The notes under the pieces: model-generated | Databases searched by the model: none | Told to the model about the DNA's origin: nothing | Seen by the model: the letters and a program-made list of their open reading frames with translations, nothing else | Part shown: one piece after another, positions 1 through 8,618 of the stretch | How positions within the stretch are numbered: the stretch's first letter is position 1 | Layout of the letters: every line of letters starts with the position of its first letter | Program-made: the position numbers and the translations under genes | From: Deltaproteobacteria bacterium RIFOXYA12_FULL_61_11 | GTDB taxonomy: Bacteria > Bdellovibrionota_F > JAHFAK01 > YA12-FULL-61-11 | Direction: 5' to 3' | DNA: 8,799 nt | Assembly: GCA_001799195.1 (NCBI GenBank) | Contig: MGSU01000170.1 | Coordinates: 1-8,799 of the forward strand

Positions 1-751
1 GGCCGGTCACGCCGGTACCATGGGCATCGTCGAGGATCAAGGCGACCCCGCGTTCCTCGCACAGGGGGACAATGCGATCGAGCGGTGCGAGGTCCCCCTC
101 CATGGAATAGACTCCCTCGACGTACACGAAGATGTGGCCGGGATCGAGACCCCGCTGTCGCAGGAGTCGGTCGAGAATGCCGGCGAGGTGATCGACATCG
201 TTGTGGCGGAAACGGAAGTGGGCCACAGGACGGCTCCCGCCGGCGAGTTTCAGCCCATCGGCGATGCTGGCATGGGCGAGTTCGTCCAAGACCAGGACAT
301 CGTTCTCTCCGAGGAGCGTCGACACCCAGGCCAGGTTGGCCTGATAACCGCTGGCGAAGAGAAGAGCCTCGGGTTGCCCTTCGTAGACGGCCAGCCGGGA
401 ACAGAGGAGTTGGTGCAGGGCCGTGGTCCCGTTGAGCAAGGGCGGACCTGCTACCCCGAGACCCCAGTCCTGAAGGTACGAGGAGGCTGCCTGGGCCACG
501 GCGGGATCGGTTGCCAAGCCGAGGTAGTTGTTGGAGCCGAACATGAGCATGTCGCGCGGTCCATGTTCGTCCTGGATCCTCACGTGAGCCGCGGCCCCGG
601 AGAGCAAGATCCTCGAATAAAAGGTGTTGCCCGCGGCAAGATGGGCCTCGGCGAGCTGTCGGAAACCGTGCAGCCGAAGTTGGAGGGGGAGAGCACCGAG
701 CCCACCTCCGAACCTCGGGTCGAGCTCTTCGGCTGCGGTGTGCTTGGGCAT
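1..751 (-). CDS. PLP-dependent alpha-oxoamine synthase family enzyme, 3' end cut by window edge
   Basis: The first 250 residues of a class I/II-fold PLP enzyme of the alpha-oxoamine synthase family (BioF, KBL, HemA-type ALAS and SPT relatives), which condense an amino acid with an acyl-thioester and release CO2. Visible family blocks: FGSNNYLGLA near residues 71-80, GPPLLNGT near 102-109, LFASGYQAN near 131-139, DELAHAS at 156-162 (His160 should stack on the PLP ring), VEGVYSMEGDLAPL near 211-224, and LDDAHGTG at 240-247 (Asp241 and His244 expected at the cofactor N1 and O3'). The Schiff-base lysine lies beyond the edge, as do the usual last ~150 residues. Start chosen at the ATG at 751 because the N-terminus then has family-like length; no strong Shine-Dalgarno is visible. 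It diverges from the FGE-like lipoprotein gene 166 bp away. The substrate cannot be assigned: the GPPLLNGT block does not clearly mark KAPA, ketobutyrate or sphingoid-base synthase. Confidence 0.92.
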   Translation of the reverse strand, partial: MPKHTAAEELDPRFGGGLGALPLQLRLHGFRQLAEAHLAAGNTFYSRILLSGAAAHVRIQDEHGPRDMLMFGSNNYLGLATDPAVAQAASSYLQDWGLGVAGPPLLNGTTALHQLLCSRLAVYEGQPEALLFASGYQANLAWVSTLLGENDVLVLDELAHASIADGLKLAGGSRPVAHFRFRHNDVDHLAGILDRLLRQRGLDPGHIFVYVEGVYSMEGDLAPLDRIVPLCEERGVALILDDAHGTGVTG

Positions 752-824
752 GATGGTAGCAAAGGAGTTTTTTGACCAGGAGCATCCTACCAGCTCGAGC
801 TCGGAGCGACAAGGTCTTGCACCA

Positions 825-852
825 GGGTGTTCGAGAGGGTGTTCGAGAGGGT
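825..852. repeat. 12-bp tandem repeat, about 2.3 copies
   Basis: The unit GGGTGTTCGAGA occurs at 825-836 and again exactly at 837-848, followed by a partial third copy (GGGT, 849-852). It lies in the 166-bp spacer between two divergent genes, directly upstream of the weak promoter candidate. It could be a slippage repeat or a double binding site for a regulator. The repetition is seen directly; function is unknown. Confidence 0.8.
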
Positions 853-880
853 TGTTGTGCCTATGCCGTCGTGGTACCAT
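852..880 (+). promoter_or_regulatory. weak sigma-70-type promoter candidate
   Basis: TTGTTG at 852-857 and TACCAT at 875-880 are separated by 17 bp. Matches to the consensus are only 3/6 and 4/6. A start near 887 would give a leader of about 30 nt before the ATG at 918. Placement is sensible but the boxes are weak. Confidence 0.25.
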
Positions 881-917
881 CCGTAAGATATGCAAGGGGG
901 TACCCACCGTCGCCGCC

Positions 918-2198
918 ATGAAGAGCTCGGGTTGTCTGCTCATACTCGCACTGGTCGCCTGTCAGACCATCATGGTGGACCAGAACAAGGACGAAGATCG
1001 GCAAGATCAGCAGCTCTACTCGAATCTGGTGGTCGACAGGAACGGTATCCCCATCCCCCCCATGTTCCGACCGGCCCCGCCCTCCAATACCACAGATCCC
1101 TATGGAGATAGTACCCTTGTTGAGGCTAGTGATCCTGGGGAAGACGGGGGTCTGGGCTATGAGCAACCGGACGGAGAGGATCCCTCGGAGGACGAAGCGC
1201 AGCTCCCTCTGCCTCCATTGACGCCGCCACCTGCCGGGAACAGCCCTCCCACCTTTACCGAGGCGCCTGATAAACCCCTGGCCATGTATTACGACAGCAG
1301 CGTGCGCATCCCCATCCTGGTCGAGGAGCCCGACGGCGAACCCGTGACCGTGGCGATCACCCGCGGCAAGCGCCCGAGCATGGAACTCGACGATGCCAGA
1401 GTTTTTACCTTTACGCCGGACAGCACGCTCGCCGATCGCACCATCAAGGTCGATGTCACCGCGACCGACGGTTTCCACCAGACGGTCCTGACCTTGACCT
1501 TCGAGGTGCTCAATCCTTATGAGGGCATGCTCAATCTTGGCAGCTACTCCATCGATCCCTACGAGGCGGTGGTATCCTATGACCCCTATTGCGCCAAGAA
1601 TACCTTCTATGGTCAGGACATCGATGACTACCTGATCGGTTTCCCCGATCTGATCGGGTATCAGGAACACAACGAGGGCAGCGAATGGGGCGATCGCCTC
1701 TTCGCTTGCACGGTCAAAGGCGAAATCCCCTCCCGCTACATCACCTGGCCCCAGGCAAAACGGGCGTGCGAGAACATGGGTAAACGCCTGTGCTCCTTCT
1801 CGGAGTTCAAGACGGCCTGTGCCGATACCCCTAAGGACAAGTGCAACTGGGACAAAGGCGCTCCCTACGCCTCGGGTGGAGCCCCCGAATGCGCGGCCAC
1901 CACCGGAACCTTCGACATGATCGGCAACCTGAGGGAATGGACCACCGAGCTACGCTGCGAACCCGTGACCGAGAACGATCCCTGTCACGAACAATGTTTG
2001 TTCCTCCATGACCAGGCTTGGTGCGACGATGCGGCCAAACTCAATACCCTGCGCACCGAGAAGCCCCTCGGGATTGGTTTTCACCAGGTCGGGGGGTTCT
2101 TCGGCAACAACGGCGAATGGTACGCTGAATGCGGCAAGGTCGAATCGGGTTTGGCCGAAGAGGGCAGGGAAGGGGTCGGTTTCCGCTGTTGTAAGTGA
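918..2198 (+). CDS. lipoprotein with cadherin/Ig-like domain and degenerate formylglycine-generating-enzyme (SUMF1) domain
   Basis: A 426-residue predicted lipoprotein. The ATG at 918 is chosen because it begins a type II signal peptide whose lipobox LVAC puts the lipidated Cys at 15; upstream in-frame codons would overlap the divergent gene and bury the signal. The nearest ribosome-binding sequence, AAGGGGG (894-900), is rather far away (17 nt). Residues 16-106 are an acidic, proline-rich linker. Residues ~107-200 look like a cadherin/Ig-like beta domain (SPPTF, EPDGEPVTVAI, FTFTPDSTLADRTIKVDVTA, TDGF). Residues ~203-426 match the FGE/SUMF1 fold: YITWPQAKRACENMGKRLC (274-292), TFDMIGNLREW (331-341) and terminal GVGFRCC (419-425). 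The catalytic cysteine pair of true aerobic FGEs (RGGSW.C....C context) is not present in the GGFFGNNGEWYAEC stretch (392-405), so sulfatase activation is unlikely; a structural or ligand-binding role is inferred. Twenty Cys besides the lipidated one suggest disulfides and export. Its stop directly abuts that of the convergent gene. Confidence 0.88.
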   Translation: MKSSGCLLILALVACQTIMVDQNKDEDRQDQQLYSNLVVDRNGIPIPPMFRPAPPSNTTDPYGDSTLVEASDPGEDGGLGYEQPDGEDPSEDEAQLPLPPLTPPPAGNSPPTFTEAPDKPLAMYYDSSVRIPILVEEPDGEPVTVAITRGKRPSMELDDARVFTFTPDSTLADRTIKVDVTATDGFHQTVLTLTFEVLNPYEGMLNLGSYSIDPYEAVVSYDPYCAKNTFYGQDIDDYLIGFPDLIGYQEHNEGSEWGDRLFACTVKGEIPSRYITWPQAKRACENMGKRLCSFSEFKTACADTPKDKCNWDKGAPYASGGAPECAATTGTFDMIGNLREWTTELRCEPVTENDPCHEQCLFLHDQAWCDDAAKLNTLRTEKPLGIGFHQVGGFFGNNGEWYAECGKVESGLAEEGREGVGFRCCK

Positions 2199-4685
2199 TC
2201 AGGCTTCTCGCAGGACAGCCTGTTCTTCAGGCGTGCGTTCGCGCAGGTAGAGGGCGCCAGAAAAACACTTCTTCGCACAAATGCCGCAACCAATGCATTT
2301 CGCAGGGTCGGTCACGGGTAGGAGCTGTTCGTTGAGACTGATCGCTTGATATGGGCAGCGGGTGCAATTCCCGCAATGCTGACACAGTTCGGTGCGACAC
2401 GCCGAGAGTTTCTTCGCCGGTGATAGTTCCATGAAGCCGGTGATCGGCGAGGGGAGTGCACAGCCGATCAACTCCTTCATCGAGCCGATGCCTCGAGCTT
2501 CCATCAGGTGGCTGACCCCGGAGCACAGCTCGTCGTGGATGGCATAGCCGTATTTGGTGACCAGGGTGCAGAATTGGACCGTGCGCACGCCCAGGGCCAA
2601 GAAATCGGCGGCGGCCTTGTAATGCATGGGCCCGCCATTGCCGGAGATATGTACCCCCAACGGTGCTGCGGTGGCGAGAGTTAGATAACTGATGGGCAGT
2701 ACTCCCTCACCGCTCATGCCGACCACAATACCCTCGTCCCAACTGGGTTTTGCCCCCGGCCGGAAACACAGCGAGGGGAAGGAGTTGGCCAGGGTGATAC
2801 CGGCAGGCTTCCCCGGGTGGTGCTCGAGGACTTGACGCACGGCCAGGACGATGGCTGCAATGGAGGTGACCGCGCCGGTGAGCTTGAACAATTTTGGAAC
2901 CTCGGCCGAACCTGCCGACAGGATCCAATCGATGATCTTGGCAGTCAGGGCAGCATTCTGCGAGACGATGTCGCCCTCGGTGCCATCCCCTCCCTGAGGA
3001 CAGGACAGGCTGTATTCGATCGCCATGGCCCCGGCCTGTTCCAGTTTTCGGGTGTTGGCCTGCCAAACCGCCCGATCGGCCTCGTCGCGTCCGGTGACCG
3101 GGCCTCCGGTAGAACCGATGGTGAGGCGGTCGGGGTACATCCGGACAAGGTGCCCGATCTCGTCGCAGACCCGGTCGAGCGGGTGTCCGCTGACATTATC
3201 GCAGTTGCCGTAGGTATTCTCGTCGAAGACGTGCATGTATTCGCCGGGAATGTGGATGGGCAACCCATCGAAGGAGGTCTTGAGCACGCCTCCGGCCCAA
3301 CCGGCCTCGTAGGCACTGACCATCTGGTCGAGCCCGTCGCTGATCGGAGAGGCCGAGAGCAGGAAGGGAGTGCGCAGAGGTCTCCCGAAGAAGTCGGTGC
3401 GTAGCGGAACCGGAGTCATACCGTAGCCGGACACCTGGATCGTGCTCTTGACCTTCTTGGTGAAGGATGCCCGACCCTTGCGAGCGAGCCACTGATCGAC
3501 CTCGTGGGCGGAGTTCTTGCCCGCGGCCACGGCCTCGACTACGGTCGAAGGCCCGCCGTCGCAATCGCCTGCCAGGAAAATGGGAGGGGAGGCCTCACAC
3601 GTCAAGCCCGAGGATCCGCCGATGGCGATGATGATGTGATCGACATCCCGGCGGAGCTGTTCGCTACCGTTCAGACCTTTGATTGCCCGGGGCGAGAAGG
3701 GGGTCCCCTCCGGCAGTACGACTCGTTGCAAGCGAACTCCGGTCAGTCGACCGTTTTCCATCAGTATTTCGATCAAGCGGGTCCTGCCGCTGAGCTCAAT
3801 ACCGAAGTGCCGGAGGTCTTCGCGTTCATGCGCGGTCAACGGCATCTCGGCCCAGTTCTCCAGAGCGACCATTTCGACCTGGGACGCACCTCGTTCTTTG
3901 GCCGTGGTGGCGCAATCGCAGGCGGTCGCTCCACCACCCACTACCAGCACTCGTCCGCGCAGGAGGTGAGTATCGGGAGTCGAGAGGTAATCCAAACCGC
4001 TCAAACAGCGGTCCTCGTTATCGATGCGCAGGCGCAACGGTCGCCACAGACCGACGGCGAGGATGACTGCCTGGAACCCCTGCTCGAGCAATTCTTCCGG
4101 GTCGCCGACCTTCATTCCGGTCAGCAAGGTCACTCCCTCGAGAGCTTGTACGAAAGAGAAGTCGTTCTCTATGACCGCCCGTGGCAGGCGACGTTCGGGG
4201 ATGAGCAAGCAGGCCCCACCCGGCCTCGCGGACTTCTCGAACACGTGGACTTCGTAACCCCTCTGCGCCAAGACCGCGGCAGCGGCCATACCAGCGGGGC
4301 CGGCACCGACGATGGCGACCTTGAGACCATTGCGCCGGCAGCTCTGGAACCGCGGTTCGACCTCGAGCCGTCTGGCGTGCTCGATCAGGGTTGCTTGGAT
4401 CTTTGGAATATTCACCGGACGATCGAATTCCCGGTGGACGCAGGCCTTCATGCAATGGAAATCGGGACAGACCACACCGCAGATACCGCCCAAGGGGTTG
4501 TTCTGTAAAATTTCCGCGGCGGCGCGTTTGAAATCCGAGGGTGAACCCTGACGTGCGGCCATGATGAAATCGGCAGGAGAACAATGGGCCGGACAAGCAT
4601 TCCGGCAGGGTTTTTCGGTGCAGAATTCGCATCTGGCAAGCTCGCTCGCGAGTTGGGCATCGGTCAGGAAGGAATAGGCTGTCAT
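2199..4685 (-). CDS. dihydropyrimidine dehydrogenase-like iron-sulfur flavoprotein (fused PreT-PreA architecture)
   Basis: An 828-residue, probably cytoplasmic multi-cofactor oxidoreductase with the domain order of dihydropyrimidine dehydrogenase (NADPH-dependent reduction of uracil/thymine). N-terminal GltD-like Fe-S domain: Cys19, 22, 27, 31 and Cys69, 73, 78, 82, with Gln97 aligned to the unusual Gln ligand of mammalian DPD. FAD domain: VAIVGAGPAG at 123-132, with a second FAD contact LAGDCDGGPSTVVEAV at 371-386. NADPH domain: VVGGGATACDCAT at 248-260. FMN barrel from ~425: GRPLRTPFLLSASP, LKTSF, SLSCPQGGDG (Cys562, the expected catalytic Cys), FKLTGAVTSI (Lys601), LANSF (632-636), ISGNGGP and VQFCT. 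C-terminal two-cluster ferredoxin: Cys768, 771, 774, 777 and Cys797, 800, 803, 807. It is shorter than mammalian DPD (~1025 aa), mainly before the C-terminal ferredoxin. Start chosen at the ATG at 4685, preceded by GGAGG at 7 nt; longer in-frame starts would run into the divergent gene. Some substrate-contact residues differ from DPD, so the substrate is uncertain. No dihydropyrimidinase or beta-ureidopropionase is nearby. Confidence 0.9.
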   Translation of the reverse strand: MTAYSFLTDAQLASELARCEFCTEKPCRNACPAHCSPADFIMAARQGSPSDFKRAAAEILQNNPLGGICGVVCPDFHCMKACVHREFDRPVNIPKIQATLIEHARRLEVEPRFQSCRRNGLKVAIVGAGPAGMAAAAVLAQRGYEVHVFEKSARPGGACLLIPERRLPRAVIENDFSFVQALEGVTLLTGMKVGDPEELLEQGFQAVILAVGLWRPLRLRIDNEDRCLSGLDYLSTPDTHLLRGRVLVVGGGATACDCATTAKERGASQVEMVALENWAEMPLTAHEREDLRHFGIELSGRTRLIEILMENGRLTGVRLQRVVLPEGTPFSPRAIKGLNGSEQLRRDVDHIIIAIGGSSGLTCEASPPIFLAGDCDGGPSTVVEAVAAGKNSAHEVDQWLARKGRASFTKKVKSTIQVSGYGMTPVPLRTDFFGRPLRTPFLLSASPISDGLDQMVSAYEAGWAGGVLKTSFDGLPIHIPGEYMHVFDENTYGNCDNVSGHPLDRVCDEIGHLVRMYPDRLTIGSTGGPVTGRDEADRAVWQANTRKLEQAGAMAIEYSLSCPQGGDGTEGDIVSQNAALTAKIIDWILSAGSAEVPKLFKLTGAVTSIAAIVLAVRQVLEHHPGKPAGITLANSFPSLCFRPGAKPSWDEGIVVGMSGEGVLPISYLTLATAAPLGVHISGNGGPMHYKAAADFLALGVRTVQFCTLVTKYGYAIHDELCSGVSHLMEARGIGSMKELIGCALPSPITGFMELSPAKKLSACRTELCQHCGNCTRCPYQAISLNEQLLPVTDPAKCIGCGICAKKCFSGALYLRERTPEEQAVLREA

Positions 4686-4692
4686 CGGGCTG

Positions 4693-4697
4693 CCTCC
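4693..4697 (-). promoter_or_regulatory. ribosome-binding site deciding the start of the DPD-like gene
   Basis: On the minus strand this reads GGAGG, 7 nt before the ATG at 4685. It is the best Shine-Dalgarno match among candidate starts and rejects the in-frame ATGs at 4790 and 4895. Confidence 0.8.
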
Positions 4698-4766
4698 GAA
4701 TTCGTGATCAGGCTCGAGGTCCACGGTGACGATCCGGGAAGCACGAGCCTCTCCCCTGTAGCATGA

Positions 4767-4783
4767 TGGAAAGGCCTTTTCCA
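4767..4783. repeat. palindrome in the divergent spacer
   Basis: AAAGGCCTTT at 4770-4779 is a perfect 10-bp palindrome, extended by TGG (4767-4769) and CCA (4781-4783) with one unpaired T. A wider GATGG/CCATC pair (4765-4769, 4787-4791) surrounds it. It lies between two divergent genes and could be an operator; no T-tract follows on either side, so it is not an obvious terminator. Function is inferred only. Confidence 0.45.
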
Positions 4784-4810
4784 GTACCATCGGGGCGGAG
4801 TAATGGGGAT

Positions 4811-4840
4811 TTGCCTCTCGAAGGCCGAGCGTGGTATTTT
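4811..4840 (+). promoter_or_regulatory. sigma-70-type promoter candidate for the VWA lipoprotein gene
   Basis: TTGCCT (4811-4816) and TATTTT (4835-4840) are 18 bp apart, each matching the consensus at 4 of 6 positions. The TATTTT lies in one of the few AT-rich patches of the spacer. A start near 4847 would give a leader of about 47 nt. Confidence 0.35.
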
Positions 4841-4884
4841 CGGTTCGACGGATGCGTACGACTTCCTGCCACGTGGCTCCTCCC

Positions 4885-4889
4885 GGAGG
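4885..4889 (+). promoter_or_regulatory. ribosome-binding site deciding the start of the VWA lipoprotein gene
   Basis: GGAGG, 4 nt before the ATG at 4894. The spacing is short but the match is full, and this ATG gives a clean lipoprotein signal peptide. Confidence 0.7.
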
Positions 4890-4893
4890 CCCC

Positions 4894-6387
4894 ATGCCTA
4901 GCTTCTATCTCTTGTCTCTCATACTCCTCGGATGCGCCGGGAGCAGCAGTTCGATCTCGACCGGTACGTCCTCGCCCGCCGACACTCCGATCGACGGTTC
5001 GGCGGTGTTGCCCGGCAGTCCTGTGGTCTCCTTGCCCTTTGACCCTCCCGCTCAGGGATCCACCCCCACGCCGGGTTCCCCGCTTCCGACCACCCCTTTG
5101 CCCGGAATACCTTCCCAAGATCCCTCGACCGATGGAGGAGACCCGAGTGACGACTCAGGTCAGAACGTGCCCGTTACCCTGACCATTGATTGCACTGCGA
5201 CACCGGAACACCAATCGTGCCAAGAACACGAAACGGCCATCGGTGATGCTTGTGCTTTGGCCGGGGGACAAGAACTCGCAGGCGAAGCCTCTTGCCTGGG
5301 GCGGAAATGGTCTCCGAGCTATGACCAATGTCAGGCCTGTCTCACCGAGCATGGTGGTTCACCAATAGATTGTGCTCCCTGCGCCAACCGCAGCTACGGT
5401 TTCCTGACCACCGAGACCCTCGACCAGGTCGAGCCGCGACCCGGTGCAGCCCTCGATGTGCTCTGGGTCTTCGATAATTCTCCCAGCATGGTCGACGAGC
5501 AGACCTCGCTTGCGACGAACATCCCCGATTTTCTGCAGGCTCTCGATGAGGCTGAAGTGGAGTATCGCCTCGCAGTGACCCTGACCGATCCCACACCGAC
5601 AATCCGCGGCCATTTCGTCTCCTCGGTCATCACCCCGGGTTCAGCCAACCCGACCCTGGCCTTCCGACAGGGCGTGGAGCTGGTCACGACCGACTTACTC
5701 TGTAGCAGTGATCAAGTTGGAGCCGATTGTTACAACGAGCAGGGATTGAGCACCGCGGTCACCGCCCTGGCCTATGCTTCCACTGAGACCCCACCCAATC
5801 AGGGGTTTCTCAGACCCGAGGCCGATTTAGCGGTGATCTTCGTCAGCGATTCCGACGACATGACCAAGGCCAATCCCACGCGAGTATTCGAAGCCACGGG
5901 AACGCGCGATGCTCAGATCGATATCTTACTCGCCGCGAAGAGCGCTCCCGCCAAGGTCACCCTTTCCGCCCTAGTCGCCGATGGGTCCGAGGGTTGCAGC
6001 CGTTCCTGTTGGCTCCCTTCCGCGCAGAATCCTTCCCTGTATCAATGCACCTTGGACCTCCCCGAGCATGACAACATCGAGAGCGTCGGGACCTTCTACC
6101 TCGAGGCGGTACGCCGCAGCGGAGGGCTGTCCGGTCCCCTGTGCAGCAAAGATTTTAAACCGTTCCTGAGCGAGCTCGGCGCTCGTTTGACGGGAGCGAG
6201 CACGAGCTTCCCGCTGGCCCATCAACCCATCTCCCATTCCGTCGCCGTATGGGTCGATTCCGTGCTGGTTCCTCCCGGGGAGGTGAACGGTTGGCGGGTG
6301 GAGGGCTCGGCCTTGCAGTTCCACGGGACGGCCGTGCCTCCGGTCGGGGCGACCCTGCAGGTCAGGTATTATCGCGAAGAACCCTAG
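4894..6387 (+). CDS. Cys-rich von Willebrand factor A-domain lipoprotein
   Basis: A 497-residue predicted lipoprotein. The signal peptide MPSFYLLSLILLGC ends in lipobox LLGC with Cys14; the next residue is Ala, not Asp, which suggests the outer membrane by the E. coli rule. Residues 15-98 are a low-complexity Ser/Thr/Pro/Gly/Asp linker that could hold the rest away from the membrane. A compact module with eight cysteines follows (100, 109, 120, 134, 146, 149, 160, 163), probably disulfide-bonded. A VWA domain starts near 187: VLWVFDNSPSM carries the MIDAS motif DxSxS (Asp194, Ser196, Ser198), and VIFVSDSDD (~314-322) is the later acidic strand. VWA domains bind divalent metal and protein partners. 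Residues ~448-497 form a beta-rich C-terminal segment (VAVWVDSVLVPPGEVNGW ... VGATLQVRYY) that recurs in predatory-bacterium and myxobacterial VWA lipoproteins as I recall them. The next gene starts 176 bp downstream on the same strand. The partner and biological role are unknown. Confidence 0.88.
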   Translation: MPSFYLLSLILLGCAGSSSSISTGTSSPADTPIDGSAVLPGSPVVSLPFDPPAQGSTPTPGSPLPTTPLPGIPSQDPSTDGGDPSDDSGQNVPVTLTIDCTATPEHQSCQEHETAIGDACALAGGQELAGEASCLGRKWSPSYDQCQACLTEHGGSPIDCAPCANRSYGFLTTETLDQVEPRPGAALDVLWVFDNSPSMVDEQTSLATNIPDFLQALDEAEVEYRLAVTLTDPTPTIRGHFVSSVITPGSANPTLAFRQGVELVTTDLLCSSDQVGADCYNEQGLSTAVTALAYASTETPPNQGFLRPEADLAVIFVSDSDDMTKANPTRVFEATGTRDAQIDILLAAKSAPAKVTLSALVADGSEGCSRSCWLPSAQNPSLYQCTLDLPEHDNIESVGTFYLEAVRRSGGLSGPLCSKDFKPFLSELGARLTGASTSFPLAHQPISHSVAVWVDSVLVPPGEVNGWRVEGSALQFHGTAVPPVGATLQVRYYREEP

Positions 6388-6548: not shown

Positions 6549-6554
6549 AGGGGA
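6549..6554 (+). promoter_or_regulatory. ribosome-binding site for the BPI-like lipoprotein gene
   Basis: AGGGGA, 9 nt before the ATG at 6564. A competing GGGGG at 6532-6536 sits 6 nt before an in-frame ATG at 6543, which would add seven residues to the signal peptide. The 6564 start gives the more typical lysine-led signal sequence. Confidence 0.5.
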
Positions 6555-6563
6555 TTGTCTTCA

Positions 6564-8618
6564 ATGAAACAATTTCGTTTCTTGGTTCCGAGCGTCCTCC
6601 TCGTCGGCCTAGCCTGTAGCGATACCGTGGTTGACATGTCAACCTATGAGATGACTCCCCAGGAGACCAAAGAGTTTCTATCCGAATCCACGACCTTCGA
6701 GCAGGTACCCGGAACCCAGGGCAAGGCTTTGCGCACCCTCGGGGTACGCGTGGACCAGAGCTTCCTGCGCAGAGCCTTGGACGAACAGACCCTGATCGAC
6801 CTCGGTGAGTTGAGCTTCCCGGAGCCCATCTCGGTGCAGGACCCCGGAGTTCCCTGTATCAAGAGTTTCACCATCAGCGCCTTGCATGTCGTCGGACTCC
6901 AGCCTTCCTATGTGCGCCTGGACCTGGACGGGGCCCAAAACCTCCTGATCACCGGGGTGAGGGTGCCGAGTGGCACACCGATCCATGTCCGTGGGCTGAT
7001 TTCTTGGGAGAATTCTTGTAGTTTGAACGACCTCGGACAACTCGCAGGAGGAGGTGACCTGGGTCCCCTCGGTGGACTGGTCGACACGGCCATCGGCATG
7101 GCGGGCGTCAGCCCGAAATTGCAGGTGCCGGGAGGAGGCGGCGACCTGTTCGAAGACCTTTTCGGTGTGGATCTGCAGGATACTCCTCAGGATGATTTCG
7201 GCATCTTCGGTCAGGATGGAGAAGCGCAGGTCGATTCCCTCTTCGACGTGGACGACCAGGACCTCGAACAACTCGGGACCACCTTGGCTTCGATGAGCAC
7301 CGAGGAATTCCTCGGCCAGGACCTGTTCCAGGACGACATGGTTTTCGAGGTCGACCTCCTCGACCTCGACGTGACCCTCCCGCTGCGCCCCTCGGTGATT
7401 CCTGATCCGGGCTTCTCCCGGCTCGACCTCACCGTTGTCGAAGAAGGTCTTGCCCTGTCCTTCACCCCGCGCATCACGCGCCTGGGCACCTTGCCGCCCG
7501 AAGTGGTGGACGAGCTCCTGGCTTCCGCCTTCCCCGAAGGTTTGGCCTCGGCCATGACCCAGAATGTGCGAGGACCCGCGAGCAGTACCATTACTGCTTA
7601 CCTGCGCGCAACCTTGGCAGATCAGATCGAGCTGCTCCAGGGGGATTTCGATGCGACCCATTTCGATCCGCTCTTCGAACGTCTCGACGAGGTAACGCCC
7701 GCTCTTCTAGAAGGGCAACCCTTCGACCGGGCCGGGGTGCATTATCTCTTCGATTTCCACCGTGCCCAAGTCGTGGGTACGGCCCTGGAGGTAGACCTCA
7801 ACGGCTTGATCTCGAGTACGGCTCCCGCGCATGCCTGTCTCGGCGACTTTGCCGCCTCGTTCGCTCCTGCTTCTGCCGCGCCCGCGGCAACGGCGACCTG
7901 GCCCGGCTACGTCGGGGGTCAGCTCGAGTTGCTCCTCGCGTCGCCCCTCGTCAACCAGGCACTCTATGCTTTTGCCAAGAACGGTTTCTTGTGTCGTACC
8001 ATACCTTTGACAGAAGAGACGGTGGTGACCCTGAGCGAACAGCTCATGGAACGGCTGGTCGAGGACCTCCCCAAGGTCGGTCCAGCCTTCCCCCCCGAGG
8101 TTCGCCAGAAGACCCTCAGGGCTTTCCTCGAGGACCTGGGGGTGCTGGACATGGTTCGGAACCAGCAGATCGGTATTGCCGTCCTGCCGACCCGGGCCCC
8201 GGTGGTCGAGTTCGTCGAGGGGGGACTGCAACTCCAACAATTCTGGTTCGAGGTCTCGGTCCGCTTCGGTGAGGTCGAGATGTTGGTGCTACGGCCCCGT
8301 TTCGAGGCCACCGCAGTGCTCTCGGTGAGCGGTGGACGGCTGCTCCTGCTGGAGGTGCGAGATATCGTCGTTGGTGGGGAGGTGGTCGGTTTCGCCAGCT
8401 ACGGACAGTTGCAGGGAGCCCCGCTCGATACCTTGGCGCGAACCCTGGTAGGAGAAGAGTATGGTACCCTGCTCAACCAGTTCGTCAACGGCCTGATCCA
8501 GGAACACTTCGCCGGTGGTCTGGCCATCGCCGACCTCGAGGTCGCCGGACTTGCCCTCGGGCTCGAGAACGCGACCTTCGTGCCGGGTTTCCTCCGCGCC
8601 GGTATGGTCGTTCGCTGA
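6564..8618 (+). CDS. lipoprotein, predicted BPI/LBP-like tandem TULIP lipid-binding protein
   Basis: A 684-residue predicted lipoprotein: MKQFRFLVPSVLLVGLAC with lipobox GLAC, Cys18 lipidated, Ser next. No assigned function can be read from short motifs. The order and spacing of segments, however, resemble the two pseudo-symmetric TULIP domains of BPI/LBP, which hold acyl chains. In the N-terminal half: an opening strand and helix (~58-80, LGVRVDQSFLRRAL), strands around 98-148, then 258-307 and a helix pair ~311-356. In the C-terminal half: GGQLELLLASPLVNQALYAF (451-470), strand-rich 535-612, helix YGTLLNQFVNGLIQEHF (633-649) and a closing strand unit LAIADLEVAGLALGLENA (653-670), FVPGFLRAGMVV (672-683), much like the C-terminus of BPI. 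Extra elements: an Asp/Gly-rich insertion (~155-258) and a helical insertion (~482-532). Cysteines are few (98, 152, 425, 477). The alternative is an unrelated beta-rich family; the gene is solid, the fold is inferred. Confidence 0.83.
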   Translation: MKQFRFLVPSVLLVGLACSDTVVDMSTYEMTPQETKEFLSESTTFEQVPGTQGKALRTLGVRVDQSFLRRALDEQTLIDLGELSFPEPISVQDPGVPCIKSFTISALHVVGLQPSYVRLDLDGAQNLLITGVRVPSGTPIHVRGLISWENSCSLNDLGQLAGGGDLGPLGGLVDTAIGMAGVSPKLQVPGGGGDLFEDLFGVDLQDTPQDDFGIFGQDGEAQVDSLFDVDDQDLEQLGTTLASMSTEEFLGQDLFQDDMVFEVDLLDLDVTLPLRPSVIPDPGFSRLDLTVVEEGLALSFTPRITRLGTLPPEVVDELLASAFPEGLASAMTQNVRGPASSTITAYLRATLADQIELLQGDFDATHFDPLFERLDEVTPALLEGQPFDRAGVHYLFDFHRAQVVGTALEVDLNGLISSTAPAHACLGDFAASFAPASAAPAATATWPGYVGGQLELLLASPLVNQALYAFAKNGFLCRTIPLTEETVVTLSEQLMERLVEDLPKVGPAFPPEVRQKTLRAFLEDLGVLDMVRNQQIGIAVLPTRAPVVEFVEGGLQLQQFWFEVSVRFGEVEMLVLRPRFEATAVLSVSGGRLLLLEVRDIVVGGEVVGFASYGQLQGAPLDTLARTLVGEEYGTLLNQFVNGLIQEHFAGGLAIADLEVAGLALGLENATFVPGFLRAGMVVR

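Follow-up and report, generated by a model that had tools for sequence, protein, structure and literature searches.

The question raised by contig MGSU01000170.1 of Deltaproteobacteria bacterium RIFOXYA12_FULL_61_11 is whether a gene on its + strand, at positions 6564-8618, encodes a bacterial relative of BPI and LBP with two TULIP domains in one chain. The window, as we call the whole stretch of DNA that was analysed, is the entire source contig of 8799 bases (G000:C170), and the product of the gene is referred to as the window protein. The initial annotation had proposed a bacterial BPI/LBP-like lipoprotein with two TULIP domains, and both the predicted model and the profile link of its family to LBP and BPI support that proposal. 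With a probability of roughly 0.9, we consider the window protein to be a member of a BPI/LBP-related bacterial family with the two-domain BPI-like fold. The larger find is the bacterial family itself, which could show where the animal BPI/LBP family came from.

A bacterial family related to LBP and BPI

Taken alone, the window protein gave no meaningful match among PDB sequences (a set of 177,635 sequences), nothing was found when a set of genome contigs was scanned with it, and tblastn against plasmids found nothing either. The link runs through relatives. The same genome carries a paralog, 38-41% identical, in two pieces at contig ends (L002 1399-2898 and L003 1465-1974). As each piece runs up to a contig end and the two complement each other in coverage, we infer that they are one gene. 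The profile of the two paralogs reached a protein in another lineage (L004, expect value (E) 4.6e-4), with the common motif NQALYA...G..C, and a profile of L004 and its orthologues then matched long unannotated proteins in further genomes. A profile of four compact family cores, built without the window protein (A5), found members in 7/7 genomes of one phylum (as many as eight matches in a genome), in 2/2 genomes of another phylum, and in 20/386 genomes of a broad bacterial sample, where 15 taxonomic families are represented. A third, more distant copy in the genome of the window protein (L103 6796-9273, 826 aa), ending in a weak MYXO-CTERM-like tail, was matched by the family profile with E 3.9e-9.

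In the PDB set, the A5 profile matched LBP (E 1.4e-6) and BPI (1.5e-6). The profile of a 42-sequence family alignment with no eukaryotic row (A6) matched LBP with E 3.1e-22 and BPI with 6e-22, with no other match up to E 1, and its alignment to LBP is collinear (profile positions 11-479 against LBP residues 5-465). The Pfam model LBP_BPI_CETP_C (PF02886) matches 13/42 members, the best (L069) with E 2.2e-9 and 37.5 bits at a gathering cut-off of 23, while LBP_BPI_CETP (PF01273) matches seven members, and JHBP and Group 7 allergen four each. When PF02886 was run over 385 genomes, five were matched (controls 0/14); the matched places lie in genomes that already have family members, and the loci that were checked are family members. 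By sequence, the family of the window protein is therefore homologous to LBP and BPI.

The window protein is tied to this family by a profile built without it and without its paralog, which matches it at residues 316-586 with E 2.9e-12, as against 0.13 for the top-scoring one among 2000 composition shuffles, and by hhalign of the paralog pair against the family (P 7e-12). The N half by itself gives a weak profile comparison (P 0.0011, with 1/100 shuffles nearly equal), and sequence alone supports residues of about 316-645. Judged by these profiles, the window protein is an LBP/BPI homologue through its family that lies below the Pfam gathering score, so it is not filed as a Pfam member.

Four of the relatives come from unclassified bacterial metagenome-assembled genomes. 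We considered whether the relatives might be eukaryotic contaminants and rejected this, as their genes have no introns, lie next to bacterial genes, and bear lipoboxes or sorting-like tails of bacterial type. An early profile match (L005), whose locus has ScpA/ScpB-like and AAA-type open reading frames (ORFs), was dropped as chance. The mode of anchoring varies among the relatives, from lipoboxes with long Asp-rich stretches to C-terminal Ig-like domains with weakly MYXO-CTERM-like tails. In the open-access papers searched, none on this bacterial family was found, and a few of its members are likely to carry automatic Pfam annotation as LBP_BPI_CETP_C.

Layout and predicted structure of the window protein

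The features of the gene and its product are as follows (all on the + strand; pLDDT, predicted local distance difference test).

6549-6554, +: AGGGGA, a possible ribosome-binding site 9 nt 5' of the ATG, read directly
6564-8618, +: whole gene of the two-domain TULIP (BPI/LBP-like) lipoprotein P0001; intact ORF from ATG, 684 aa plus stop
6564-6617, +: signal peptide and lipobox, MKQFRFLVPSVLLVGLA then C18 (LVGLA before C18; Cys18 codon 6615-6617), from sequence and the PROSITE lipoprotein pattern by inspection
6618-6725, +: linker, residues 19-54 (36 residues), from the lipid anchor to the first domain; model pLDDT low at residues 1-30
6726-7013, +: first part of TULIP-N, residues 55-150, strand-helix opening and then strands; from the model only (pLDDT mostly 70-89) with a structure match
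7014-7337, +: acidic, mostly helical insert in TULIP-N, residues 151-258 (108 residues), from model and composition
7338-7817, +: second part of TULIP-N, residues 259-418, with a long strand, a long helix (325-358) and closing strands; model and structure match, profile match from residue 316
7818-7919, +: inter-domain linker, residues 419-452, containing Cys425; from the model
7836-7838, +: Cys425 codon, with partner Cys477 (7992-7994) in a predicted disulfide, from co-occurrence
7920-8615, +: TULIP-C, residues 453-684; profile-profile P 3.8e-7 over 170 columns, and model
7938-7994, +: family motif ASPLVNQALYAFAKNGFLC, residues 459-477, which opens TULIP-C; N464 and G474 nearly invariant

A signal peptide and a plausible lipobox cysteine, recognised by inspection, mark the window protein as a predicted bacterial lipoprotein, and the paralog in the same genome also has a Cys18 after a hydrophobic stretch. 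The insert at residues 151-258 contains 23 D/E, 1 K/R and 19 G; in the alignment it is also present in the split paralog and missing from the other family cores. Compact relatives such as L039 and L080, of about 510 aa, lack it. Because C425 and C477 co-occur as a pair across the 42 members (both in 16/42, one in 1/42, neither in 25/42), a disulfide between them is predicted. The N-domain cysteines that could be compared with the N-domain disulfide of BPI are C98 and C152, and the linked pair is a different one.

A prediction from the single sequence was uninformative (AlphaFold2, pLDDT 34), and the model discussed here was made by AlphaFold2 from a 42-row alignment, with pLDDT 68.4 and a predicted template modelling score (pTM) of 0.62. 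Default MAFFT put the first N-domain helix in the wrong place owing to the insert, and fragmenting the homologues worsened the alignment; the rows were picked by subset screening for agreement with E-INS-i. The segment order of BPI, which the initial annotation had read twice along the chain as an opening strand with helix, long strands, a late helix and closing strands, is seen in the predicted model, namely strand 57-64/helix 65-74, helix 325-358 and strands 392-418 in the first half, and strand 454-459/helix 460-472, helix 621-649 and strands 663-683 in the second. The segments quoted there as resembling the end of BPI (LNQFVNGLIQEHF, LAIADLEVAGLALGLENA and VPGFLRAGMVV) are found at the C-terminus.

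The seven best Foldseek matches of the model are, in order, BPI, BPI, CETP, LBP, LBP, P47 and P47. A match to BPI, CETP or LBP over both halves, which the initial annotation had named as part of the support for its view, was thus obtained at the top of the list and over residues 55-684, with E 1.0e-14 for BPI, 6.9e-13 for CETP and 2.3e-12 for LBP. VIA-align gave Z 13.0 for BPI (411 residues, 5.3 A), 12.7 for CETP and 11.6 for LBP. The N half of the model, when used alone, matches single-domain TULIP proteins, i.e., Der f 7 with Z 11.0 over 175 residues and JHBP with Z 9.8. According to the model, the window protein is a chain of two tandem TULIP domains in the BPI-type layout, with the first part of the N half model-based; for TULIP-N residues 54-160 it is the model that provides the support.

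LBP, BPI and CETP (PF01273 with PF02886; PDB 1ewf, 4m4d and 2obd) share with the window protein two TULIP domains in one chain and in the same order, the bacterial family provides a collinear link to them by sequence, and theirs are the closest folds to the model. Unlike them, the window protein is bacterial, predicted to be lipid-anchored, acidic where they are cationic, and below detection by Pfam, and it has the 108-residue insert in its N domain and, where the two domains meet, the linked cysteine pair.

Probable role and competing explanations

From fold and family, lipid binding is the probable function of the window protein, while for actual lipid transfer we would put the odds at about even; likely, it is an envelope lipoprotein that holds lipids or hands them on. 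In the mechanism that we propose, the protein would be anchored at Cys18 after signal peptidase II processing, with the linker of 36 residues leading to two TULIP domains; between these runs a short linker, which the predicted Cys425-Cys477 disulfide would brace to the second domain. Each TULIP tube would most likely hold a membrane lipid by its acyl chains, and the protein, tethered at the outer membrane or the cell surface, may take up, present or pass on such lipids.

BPI is cationic. In contrast to its lipopolysaccharide (LPS)-binding part, the mature window protein is acidic, with an isoelectric point (pI) of 4.2 and 93 D/E versus 37 K/R, and it does not qualify as a cationic LPS binder. 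Because of this acidity, the protein is unlikely to bind LPS as BPI does, and the LPS-like cargo suggested in the initial annotation finds no support in so strongly acidic a protein.

Also compatible with the fold and the family assignment is a structural or adhesive role in the envelope, for which the lipoprotein would use TULIP tubes that have lost their lipid cargo as a binding or display module. Ig-like domains and MYXO-CTERM-like surface tails do occur in other members, and of the adjacent genes one codes for an FGE-like lipoprotein and one for a lipoprotein that weakly matches an adhesin model. However, the alternating hydrophobicity is kept in the predicted strands (0/1000 within-strand shuffles attained the amphipathicity total of the 15 predicted strands), and we regard a role of this kind as unlikely.

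Several results weigh against the assignment to a two-domain BPI-like family. The window protein has no match in Pfam (to E 10) or NCBIfam, the profile of the window protein and its paralog alone matches no PDB chain, and residues 50-160 have no significant profile match by sequence. The confidence of the model is moderate, the superposition across both domains is loose (root-mean-square deviation 5-9 A), and the neighbourhoods of paralogs and relatives hold no consistent lipid genes or partner. In addition, the selection of rows by agreement with E-INS-i could favour a BPI-like or TULIP-like N domain.

To take these points furthest, only the C-terminal half would be a genuine TULIP domain, and the N half with its acidic insert would be something different or heavily rebuilt, on which the alignment imposed a BPI-like model. 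The selected alignment rows and the sequence support, which covers residues 316-645 and not 50-160, would fit this. Nevertheless, the pLDDT is mostly 70-89 over residues 61-160 and the N half matches Der f 7 and JHBP, TULIP-N of the relatives is detectable at the same position by the PF01273, JHBP and Group 7 allergen models, and the profile of the whole family aligns to LBP from residue 5. We therefore find this explanation improbable, and two TULIP domains remain our preferred reading of the window protein.

That the window protein is an unrecognised divergent DUF4403 protein would agree with the same two-TULIP layout and the diderm-type anchoring (PMC6791001), but PF14356, the DUF4403 model, matches 0/42 members at E<=1 versus 13/42 for LBP_BPI_CETP_C, which makes this highly improbable. 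A search of the genome of the window protein with PF14356 gave no match, and as the controls were silent too, this shows little.

Relation to other bacterial TULIP proteins and to BPI/LBP/CETP

Wong and Levine recorded YceB as a prokaryotic TULIP protein at a time when there was no evidence of dimerisation in prokaryotes (PMC5507252), and Levine in 2019 put forward DUF4403 as a full-length homologue of BPI in bacteria, i.e., a pseudodimeric TULIP, for which the strongest link was an HHsearch probability of 63% to BPI-N (PMC6791001). DUF4403 was the first candidate for a bacterial two-domain BPI-like family, and the initial annotation's view of bacterial TULIP proteins as smaller or differently arranged is outdated (PMC6791001). 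As bacterial two-domain TULIP proteins have already been proposed, what is new here is a predicted lipid-anchored, acidic BPI/LBP homologue in a large and little-described family. Like the window protein, DUF4403 is a bacterial envelope protein with two TULIP domains predicted in one chain; unlike DUF4403, the family of the window protein, which has no PF14356 match, is far more clearly tied to LBP and BPI by sequence. YceB (DUF1439, PDB 3l6i) is likewise a bacterial TULIP-fold lipoprotein with a weak structural match (Z 6.2), but it has one domain of about 170 residues. The clostridial P47 and OrfX2 are bacterial and have TULIP-type domains (Foldseek 4.7e-6 to P47), but they rank well below BPI, CETP and LBP as matches to the model. 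They are proteins of toxin gene clusters, and to our knowledge no lipid anchor is known for them.

We tentatively suggest that the BPI-type pseudodimer arose in bacteria as a lipid-handling envelope lipoprotein or surface protein, and that the eukaryotic BPI, LBP and CETP proteins of immunity and plasma lipid transfer may descend from this bacterial family, although we rate such a descent below even odds. The origin of BPI/LBP/CETP becomes testable with trees, because a two-TULIP bacterial family aligns to LBP/BPI over nearly the full length and occurs in 20/386 genomes and 15 taxonomic families. The family is also an unstudied set of envelope proteins that are probably lipid-handling.

Some further observations concern the loci of relatives. 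Two unannotated putative lipoproteins with no Pfam match lie directly downstream of the split paralog (L003 199-747 and 711-1499, both on the - strand). Family genes in tandem, two or three at a locus and interspersed with other genes, were seen at L040, L044, L046 and L047, and at L046 and L047 the intervening genes look like two lipoproteins. At L106 2840-7648 (- strand), two family cores lie in one open frame of 1603 aa with a sorting-tail-like segment and a lipoprotein-like start between them, which suggests two genes read as one.

In the window itself, where no Rfam family and no tRNA was found, the TULIP gene is immediately preceded by a gene for a probable lipoprotein (4891-6384, +), whose product partially matches a Bdellovibrio MIDAS adhesin model (E 2.8e-12, with 46.5 bits, far under the cut-off of 700). 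Another probable lipoprotein, with Big_9-like and FGE-sulfatase-like domains, is encoded at 768-2195 (+), and a BioF/serine palmitoyltransferase-like alpha-oxoamine synthase at 2-943 (-) is truncated by the contig end. A single ORF of 898 aa at 2199-4895 (-) combines two halves, one GltD/YgfK-like (Fer4_20, Pyr_redox_2) and the other PreA/dihydroorotate-dehydrogenase-like with 4Fe-4S clusters, and its domain order resembles that of dihydropyrimidine dehydrogenase.
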